NCBI GenBank assembly: GCA_902613915.1
Contig: CACMJB010000004.1
Span: 1 to 64,000, forward strand
Length of the DNA: 64,000 nucleotides
DNA from: an uncultured Pelagibacteraceae bacterium
Lineage (GTDB): Bacteria; Pseudomonadota; Alphaproteobacteria; Pelagibacterales; Pelagibacteraceae
Reading direction: 5' to 3'
Shown here: piece after piece, positions 4,461-5,853 of the stretch
Layout of the letters: the number at the start of each line of letters is the position of its first letter
Position numbering within the stretch: position 1 is the first letter of the stretch
Notes under the pieces: model-generated
Told to the model about the DNA's origin: nothing
Databases searched by the model: none
The model's input: the letters and a program-made list of their open reading frames with translations, nothing else
Program-made: the position numbers and the translations under genes

Positions 4461-4490
4461 TTGACAAATTACTTAAATAATTGATATAAG
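4461..4490 (+). promoter_or_regulatory. Sigma-70 promoter of the bhmT-metY riboswitch leader
   Basis: A perfect -35 hexamer TTGACA (4461-4466) and a -10 TATAAG (4485-4490) are separated by 18 bases. The predicted start of transcription near 4497 coincides with the 5' strand of SAM-II helix P1 (4498-4502), so the transcript would begin almost directly with the aptamer. The promoter is unusually good for this AT-rich genome. Confidence 0.75.
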
Positions 4491-4491
4491 C

Positions 4492-4550
4492 CAATCAGCG
4501 CCGAGTTAAGGCAACTTGCGGGCGCTTAATAAATCCAGCTAAAGCGTCGT
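4492..4550 (+). ncRNA. SAM-II riboswitch aptamer
   Basis: The element fits the SAM-II pattern. Helix P1 is GCGCC (4498-4502) with GGCGC (4521-4525). Its loop carries GAGTTAAG and then ACTTGC. P1 is followed by the conserved TAATAAAT and AGCTAAAG stretches at about 4528-4544, which form the pseudoknot in known SAM-II RNAs. The order and spacing match the SAM-II family found upstream of methionine genes in alphaproteobacteria. Here it lies upstream of bhmT and just before an intrinsic terminator, so SAM binding should promote termination. Confidence 0.87.
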
Positions 4551-4561
4551 AAGTCTGATAG

Positions 4562-4590
4562 ACCACCGCTTTAGCCGGTGGTTTTTTTTT
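4562..4590 (+). terminator. Intrinsic terminator controlled by SAM-II
   Basis: A seven-base-pair stem, ACCACCG (4562-4568) with CGGTGGT (4576-4582), has a seven-base loop and runs into a nine-T tract (4582-4590). The segment CGCTTTAGC (4567-4575) is an exact reverse complement of GCTAAAGCG (4538-4546) in the 3' part of the SAM-II core. A nine-base-pair antiterminator can therefore form when the aptamer is not folded. Confidence 0.88.
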
Positions 4591-4621
4591 GGAACAATCT
4601 AAAATTAAACCGGGTATTTGA

Positions 4622-4670
4622 ACCATATTGTACACCTGGCATTTCGCCGAAGTACTAAAAAGGAGAAGTA
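4622..4670 (+). ncRNA. SAM-V-like riboswitch aptamer
   Basis: Downstream of the terminator a compact element contains GTAC (4630-4633), ACCTGGC, TTTCGCC, a second GTAC (4652-4655) and then TAAAAAGGAG. The GTACTAAAAAGGAG part parallels the 3' core of SAM-II. A tentative fold is a GTAC/GTAC helix with CCT (4635-4637) reaching AGG (4661-4663), which would bury the Shine-Dalgarno AGGAG (4661-4665). SAM-V RNAs following SAM-II upstream of bhmT are known from Pelagibacter. The pairing scheme is my inference from sequence. Confidence 0.72.
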
Positions 4671-4734
4671 GATGAAATCATTAAACTCCCTCAGTAGATT
4701 TCATCTCTCTCCGGTTAAAATGGAGAGAAGATGA
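4662..4734 (+). promoter_or_regulatory. Mutually exclusive hairpins over two initiation sites
   Basis: The segment TCATCTCTCTCC (4701-4712) can pair upstream with the leader-ORF site: AGATGAAATC (4670-4679) with GATTTCATCT (4697-4706), extended by GGAGA (4662-4666) with TCTCC (4708-4712). It can pair downstream with the bhmT site instead: TCTCTCC (4706-4712) with GGAGAGA (4722-4728), plus TCATC (4701-4705) with GATGA (4730-4734). The two folds exclude each other. Functional importance is inferred. Confidence 0.6.
4672..4734 (+). CDS. Candidate 20-codon leader ORF in the bhmT leader
   Basis: The ORF encodes MKSLNSLSRFHLSPVKMERR and stops with a TGA that overlaps the bhmT start as ATGA. It has the best-placed ribosome site in the leader: AGGAG at 4661-4665, six bases before its ATG, inside the SAM-V-like element. 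The peptide has no recognisable domain, so its translation rather than its product is probably what matters. The inferred role is translational coupling: ribosomes finishing this ORF would open the hairpin over the bhmT start. It is unproven whether it is translated. Confidence 0.55.
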   Translation: MKSLNSLSRFHLSPVKMERR

Positions 4735-5789
4735 GTAATATTTTATTAGATACTCTTAAAGATCAACCTTTAATTTGTGCTGAAGGTTATTTATTTGAAA
4801 TGGAACGAAGAGGTTATTTAACTTCTGGCGAATTTGTTCCTGAAGTAGCACTAGAGCATCCTGAAGTTTTAGAAAATCTTCATAAAGAATTTCAACATGC
4901 AGGCTCAAATATAGTTCAAGCTTTTACTTACAACGGTCATAGAGAAAAAATGAGAGTAATAGGTAAAGAGCATTTGTTAGAACCTTTAAATAGAGCTGCA
5001 TTAAGAATTGCCAGAAAATGTGCTGACAATCCGCCAAAAGGTTTAGGTGTTAGCTTAATGGCAGGAAATATTTCTAACAGTAATATCTGGGAAGAAAATA
5101 ATACAAGAGTACAAGCAGAAGTAAAAGGTATGTTTGCTGAAATGGTTCAGTGGGCAAAAGAAGAAAGAGCTGATTTTATTATTGGTGAAACTTTCTATTA
5201 TGCTGAAGAAGCTTTTGCCGCGTTAGAAGAAATTAAAAAATCTGGTTTACCATCTGTAATTACTATTTCACCAATGGGTGAAAATAAAATGAGAGATGGT
5301 TATACTATTCTTGAAACATGTAAGAAGTTAGAAGAATTAGGAGCTGATGTTGTGGGATTAAACTGCTTCAGAGGACCAGCTACAATGCTTCCTTACATTA
5401 AAGAAATTAGAAAAGAACTTAAATGTCATGTTGCTGCTTTACCAGTTCCTTACAGAACAACAGAACAGCATCCAACATTTTTCAATCTTCCAGATAATAA
5501 TGGATGTAATTGTCCATCTCCTCATGGCAGAACTTTCCCTACTGCTATGGATCCATTGCAATGCAATAGATATGAGATTGGAAATTTCGCAAAAGAAGTA
5601 TTTGATCTTGGAGTCAAGTACATCGGTGTTTGTTGTGGAGCTAGCCCAATGCATATACGTGAGGTTGCAGAAGCAATTGGTTTAAGAGTTCCAGCAAGCA
5701 GATTTAGGGAAAATATGAGTAAACATTTCATGTATGGTTCGGATAAAAAAATACCGAAACACATGAAAGAGTATGGAAACGTAGCGTAA
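4731..5789 (+). CDS. bhmT: Betaine-homocysteine S-methyltransferase
   Basis: BhmT transfers a methyl group from glycine betaine to homocysteine, giving methionine and dimethylglycine. The 352-residue protein carries the zinc-thiol ligands of the homocysteine methyltransferase fold: Cys212 in GLNCFRGPA, and Cys301-Cys302 in GVCCGASPMHIREVAEAIG. The GETFYY and VALPVPY segments also fit the family. GGAGAGA at 4722-4728 supports the chosen ATG, whose ATGA overlaps the leader ORF stop. It heads an operon with metY under the SAM-responsive leader, so high SAM should switch it off. Confidence 0.93.
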   Translation: MSNILLDTLKDQPLICAEGYLFEMERRGYLTSGEFVPEVALEHPEVLENLHKEFQHAGSNIVQAFTYNGHREKMRVIGKEHLLEPLNRAALRIARKCADNPPKGLGVSLMAGNISNSNIWEENNTRVQAEVKGMFAEMVQWAKEERADFIIGETFYYAEEAFAALEEIKKSGLPSVITISPMGENKMRDGYTILETCKKLEELGADVVGLNCFRGPATMLPYIKEIRKELKCHVAALPVPYRTTEQHPTFFNLPDNNGCNCPSPHGRTFPTAMDPLQCNRYEIGNFAKEVFDLGVKYIGVCCGASPMHIREVAEAIGLRVPASRFRENMSKHFMYGSDKKIPKHMKEYGNVA

Positions 5790-5802: not shown

Positions 5803-5853
5803 ATGACAAAAGAAACGACAAGAGAAACAGTAAGGGGGAAAATCAATGGCTGA
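5803..5853 (+). CDS. Candidate 16-codon ORF linking bhmT and metY
   Basis: An ATG at 5803 lies eight bases after a full AAGGAGG (5788-5794), which itself overlaps the end of bhmT. The frame encodes MTKETTRETVRGKING and stops at 5851-5853, inside the first codons of metY. metY has its own strong site, AAGGGGG at 5832-5838, so coupling may be a fine adjustment rather than a requirement. No domain is visible, and the peptide is hydrophilic. It could also be a chance ORF behind a ribosome-standby site. Confidence 0.4.
   Translation: MTKETTRETVRGKING

Follow-up and report, generated by a model that had tools for sequence, protein, structure and literature searches.

A SAM-V aptamer followed by a predicted three-strand expression platform probably controls bhmT in Pelagibacteraceae

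SAM-V is usually portrayed as a very simple riboswitch, in which the aptamer covers the Shine-Dalgarno sequence (SD) of the gene it controls, and the start codon lies typically, though this is not strictly defining, within ten nt of that SD (PMC2704228). The bhmT locus of an uncultured Pelagibacteraceae bacterium does not have this arrangement. In the window (the whole 64,000-nt stretch of DNA analyzed), the SAM-V aptamer matches the RF01826 sequence and structure model over its full length (model positions 1-66; 71.4 bits, gathering score 41) and is the only SAM-V found when the source genome was searched. The start of bhmT, which encodes a homocysteine S-methyltransferase according to its PF02574 match, is 66 nt past the AGGAG of the aptamer, and the gene has an SD of its own. 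Since the SAM-V does not cover that SD, control must be relayed, and the question is by what. A sequence-only reading of the window had proposed that SAM acts on a short leader ORF and that bhmT is switched by translational coupling. Direct inspection of the sequence confirmed the whole anatomy on which this proposal was built, coordinates included: AGGAG (4661-4665) is separated by AAGTAG (6 nt) from an ATG (4672-4674) that opens a 20-codon ORF, MKSLNSLSRFHLSPVKMERR, whose TGA (4732-4734) overlaps the bhmT ATG (4731-4733) as ATGA. The features of the region, in window coordinates, are the following:

4488-4562, + strand: degenerate SAM-II-type aptamer, tandem partner of the SAM-V (RF00521, 19.9 bits, short of its gathering score, 36)
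4538-4546, + strand: 3' strand of the SAM-II unit, GCTAAAGCG, complementary to 4567-4575, CGCTTTAGC; from sequence, a probable antiterminator pairing
4560-4590, + strand: intrinsic terminator of the SAM-II unit, a 9-pair stem and a T run
4603-4668, + strand: SAM-V aptamer (RF01826, E 1e-9 in the window)
4662-4666, + strand: strand a, GGAGA, part of the aptamer 3' end and putative decoy SD, partner of b in the ON fold
4671-4679, + strand: 5' arm of the upper a:b stem, GATGAAATC, which includes the leader ATG and forms a perfect 9-bp inverted repeat with 4697-4705
4672-4734, + strand: 20-codon leader ORF, predicted not to be what regulates bhmT
4697-4705, + strand: 3' arm of the upper a:b stem, GATTTCATC, inverted repeat with 4671-4679
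4706-4712, + strand: strand b, TCTCTCC, predicted anti-RBS common to two mutually exclusive folds
4722-4728, + strand: strand c, GGAGAGA, the SD of bhmT, facing the same TCTCTCC as does the GGAGA of a
4731-5789, + strand: bhmT, betaine-homocysteine S-methyltransferase (ORF; PF02574, 1.2e-38)

Leaders were fetched from 80 bhmT loci and from SAM-V searches covering 397 genomes across the order and 169 within the genus, giving 141 distinct sequences in which the distance between the SAM-V GGAG and the gene was bimodal, either 7-12 nt or 54-79 nt. The first, direct class, where the aptamer SD is the gene's own, includes metY leaders of the genus and eight bhmT leaders, and direct-class metY was also present in 29 loci of a neighbouring genus. 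The second, which we call the platform class, comprises 100 distinct leaders, 42 of them preceding bhmT, 56 a mini-ORF followed by metY, and two a metE-like gene, so labelled from its sequence, which gave no Pfam match. Strands a, b and c are common to all 100. The bhmT leader of a genome whose SAM-V positions agree with the PMC2704228 table for Candidatus Pelagibacter ubique HTCC1062 (L142) carries the same three strands with a gap of 73 nt, and thus belongs to the platform class. At two loci (L236 and L237) the same SAM-II/SAM-V tandem and platform lie ahead of another gene, judging by its sequence a probable relative of cobalamin-independent methionine synthase. In gammaproteobacterial loci labelled SAR86 (L087, L089, L094 and others), bhmT follows a SAM-II-like stretch together with the conserved motif CCCAGG(A/G)TTTAA, and SAM-V was absent from that position in these contigs.

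When the platform leaders were folded with c held open, the aptamer GGAG was predicted to pair with b, and when a was held open it was c that paired with b, in 100 of 100 cases and with nearly identical mean energies (-19.5 kcal/mol with c forced open and -19.4 with a forced open). Of the four b bases that pair with a, c also used three or more in every one of these leaders, with both folds below -12 kcal/mol; the same was reached in 3.2% of 2000 shuffles that kept a and c. This overlapping pair of helices, which the sequence-only reading had not mentioned, is far beyond chance. The predicted pairing is that of an anti-RBS/anti-anti-RBS system, where one strand pairs alternatively with the RBS of the gene or with a strand of the aptamer.

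As a stand-in for SAM binding, the GGAG of a was withheld from pairing, in calculations with nearest-neighbour energies, which leave aside the pseudoknot and triplex of the aptamer. The cost of opening c rose from group medians of 0.6-1.9 kcal/mol with a available to 6.1-9.4 with a withheld, and in the window from 3.1 to 9.6, so that by this proxy for the ligand effect c becomes about 7 kcal/mol harder to open. The unconstrained best fold of the window (-24.1 kcal/mol) is OFF-like, with a paired to a loop CTCC, and lies 5.5 kcal/mol below the ON fold; the ON state would therefore depend here on co-transcriptional order or on ribosomes. Most bhmT a:b hairpins have an apical loop CCCTC (4688-4692 in the window) that is conserved across genera, for which visual comparison with strands a and c and with aptamer P1 gave no consistent partner.

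The strands have also changed together. In 19 diverged leaders, the a and b arms outside the SD paired at -9.0 kcal/mol with their own partner versus -5.2 when swapped between leaders, and none of 20,000 permutations was as good, in a test that removes the relatedness among leaders only partly. At position 5 of b, counted from its 3' end, 72 leaders have A-T-A across strands a, b and c and 14 have G-C-G, as do six at position 6. An alignment of the arms without gaps gave modest support, its covariation score being matched by 15 of 500 shuffles and its paired cells by 9 of 500; such a count is weakly informative because bulges shift the register, and the swap test was therefore used instead.

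These observations on the sequences, their conservation, the coevolution of a and b and the exclusivity and balance of the predicted folds are brought together by the reading that we consider probable, namely that the SAM-V aptamer works through a downstream three-strand expression platform, with the ribosome site in the aptamer as a decoy and the ORF as a by-product. At low SAM, the GGAG at the aptamer 3' end (a) would pair with the pyrimidine strand b, leaving the bhmT SD (c) free. With SAM present, two G's of a would be drawn into the aptamer, in P2a and the triplex, and the b thus released would pair with c and close bhmT. The site in a would then act as an anti-anti-RBS that competes with the true SD for b, and the simplest reading of its likeness to a true ribosome site is that b must fit both. 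The leader ATG would be there as part of the a:b stem, and in the metY-type leaders it would copy the true start site so that b fits either.

Such an exchange agrees with what has been published on SAM-V. Trimming 2-3 nt from the 3' end of the aptamer abolishes SAM binding, and in the short P2a helix two aptamer bases pair with part of the SD (PMC6061858), so the bases that SAM needs would be those that b also pairs with. SAM binding was observed for the bhmT SAM-V examined in that work, and the copy in the window is predicted to bind it too. That SAM should turn the gene off is suggested by the published SAM-V mechanism and by the induction of bhmT in HTCC1062 under sulfur limitation, 34-fold for the mRNA and 3.6-fold for the protein (PMC5069961). 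The affinity of the bhmT SAM-V is cited there as 120 uM and was 0.5 uM for a 52-nt RNA (PMC6061858), a difference that would fit competition by b if the 120 uM RNA was longer.

The leader ORF would not be needed for any of this, and its history among related leaders points in the same direction. With the leader ATG fixed, 38% of dinucleotide shuffles of the remainder are open to the bhmT start, and the first bases of bhmT, ATGAGTAAT, contain a stop in both other frames, so that taken alone neither the ATGA overlap nor an open frame is remarkable; an ATG 3-12 nt after GGAG arises in 9% of shuffles. This ATG is missing from 18 of the 27 platform bhmT leaders outside the genus, none of which has a GTG or TTG in that range either; a lack of conservation in related leaders, which the sequence-only reading had itself named as refuting its proposal, is thus what the leaders outside the genus show. 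At least six changes of ORF state are required on the BhmT tree among platform leaders, with the platform kept throughout. Within the genus, 16 of the 56 metY-type leaders depart from the modal length of 57 nt, by a number not divisible by three in 15 of the 16; a stop appears within four codons in five of the 56, and GTG replaces ATG in one. The platform hairpins persist wherever the ORF is absent, frame-shifted or stopped early, as also in L048. Selection on the ORF as a coding sequence was rejected, given that no third-position excess was present among the substitutions in the 56 metY-type leader ORFs. What the ATG does show is a consistent place in the RNA structure: it is paired in the predicted ON fold of all 72 genus leaders that have it, and in the 55 metY-type leaders with an ATG it shares at least two b bases with the true ATG in the OFF fold. 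Its seat in the a:b stem could explain why it persists in the genus.

A combination of both ideas fares best among the alternatives, although we think it unlikely. The RNA switch would form the conserved core, to which this genus would add a ribosome that starts at the decoy and redundantly keeps b off c at low SAM, SAM closing both routes. With b paired to c, the decoy SD and ATG of the metY-type leaders stay accessible (0.6 kcal/mol), and a ribosome initiating at them would assist in opening c. ORF and gene start overlap in 14 of the 15 bhmT leaders of the genus, and the OFF-biased fold of the window would benefit from such help, so that leader translation may contribute in this genus. Against this, the natural knock-outs of the ORF described above (the five early stops and the GTG among metY-type leaders, and the early stop in L048) retain the platform, the coding signature is absent, and the 3-nt spacing between SD and ATG in the metY type is short. 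Given that every more distant leader with an ATG is open as far as the gene, translation of the ORF may also play a supplementary role in some lineages, among them this genus.

Coupling alone, by which ribosomes would translate the 20 codons without SAM, melt b:c and re-initiate at bhmT through the ATGA while SAM blocked only the leader start, is very unlikely. The SD, the 6-nt spacing, the ATG and the overlap are real in the window, and coupling would account for the b:c hairpins as well; a B12 riboswitch of M. tuberculosis, with a required uORF and an AUGA overlap, offers a precedent (PMC11260477). Also in its favour, and against the three-strand reading, each of the nine ATG-bearing platform leaders from outside the genus has a frame that stays open up to the gene, versus 0.5 expected in shuffles, these nine representing about four lineages on the tree. 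However, as a conserved mechanism it was rejected because of the missing ATG in 18 of the 27 distant leaders bearing the same strands, the frameshifts and early stops in the metY-type group and the repeated changes on the BhmT tree. In the window, moreover, opening the leader SD and ATG jointly costs 5.7 kcal/mol, the conserved and coevolving a:b helix would oppose initiation there, and bhmT has a strong SD of its own. Of the sequence-only reading, then, the indirect action of SAM-V on a gene with its own SD stands, while a relay through translation of the leader ORF found no support in the 100 leaders. Finally, recruitment of 30S subunits by the riboswitch SD for initiation at the distant gene start, SAM hiding that SD, has a close geometric parallel in the SAM-II leader of S. 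meliloti metA (riboswitch SD required, start 74 nt downstream at AUG2, AUG1 dispensable; PMC9373788), but it is scarcely credible here, as all platform leaders carry an SD that belongs to the gene itself, and 30S recruitment has no need of the a:b helix, which is conserved and coevolving.

A different short ORF of the window may be a better candidate for coupling than the bhmT leader ORF. Between bhmT and metY, at 5803-5853 (+ strand), there is a mini-ORF, MTKETTRETVRGKING and a stop, the stop falling at +8 relative to the metY ATG (ATGGCTGA). Genus loci with this mini-ORF place its start 40, 43 or 46 nt ahead of metY, so that, unlike in the bhmT leader ORF, the frame is constant; no third-position excess was detected in it among genus loci. 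HTCC1062 has a further SAM-V (L142, 364-428, - strand, 57.6 bits) where 72 nt separate bhmT from osmC, some ten nt ahead of the start of osmC. The table in PMC2704228 left gaps under 100 nt outside, and this one with them; a SAM-V at this site would agree with osmC being strongly induced when sulfur is limiting.

Returning to the three-strand platform, its interest lies in that SAR11 bacteria are among the most abundant cells of the ocean, and their bhmT leaders, that of HTCC1062 included, seem to use a relay instead of direct occlusion. An RNA cut at the end of the aptamer would therefore miss the part that switches the gene. The platform also illustrates how RNA pairing with a start site can give rise, as a side effect, to what looks like a leader ORF. 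As a tentative and rather doubtful extension, there may be a second, undescribed form of SAM-V whose aptamer contains the decoy and which serves bhmT, metY and a metE-like gene in SAR11; some lineages would use the decoy as a working mini-cistron as well, RNA pairing and ribosome transit being redundant routes to the ON state, and its logic may extend to the 'translation at a distance' of S. meliloti metA.

The anti-RBS/anti-anti-RBS logic itself is already known; for SAM-V it is apparently undescribed, the founding paper of 2009 (Poiata) left aside. Direct SAM-V (RF01826; metY, Ca. Pelagibacter ubique; PMC6061858, PMC2704228) shares with the present leaders the aptamer, the SD at its 3' end and translational repression by SAM, and differs in that the aptamer provides the gene with its SD, 7-12 nt ahead of the ATG, whereas here a putative decoy 54-79 nt away would be relayed by b and c. 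The bhmT SAM-II/SAM-V tandem of HTCC1062 (PMC11508383, PMC5069961) has the same gene and tandem as the window, as well as strands a, b and c; in the passages considered, the published accounts cover the aptamers, the linker and direct occlusion of the RBS, with the stretch after SAM-V undiscussed. The ppe2 B12 riboswitch of M. tuberculosis (PMC11260477) likewise has an anti-RBS and an anti-anti-RBS, the latter overlapping the aptamer, and a short ORF with an AUGA overlap, but it controls the RBS of the uORF itself and requires uORF translation, whereas here the predicted target is the RBS of the gene and the ORF is not conserved. In the S. meliloti metA SAM-II leader (PMC9373788), an SD and AUG1 lie at the aptamer, AUG1 being unused and the aptamer SD needed for a gene start 74 nt downstream, with a terminator between the two in-frame AUGs. 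30S recruitment was proposed there by authors who state that the structure was not analyzed experimentally, and by analogy a three-strand switch like the one described here would be an alternative for that leader.
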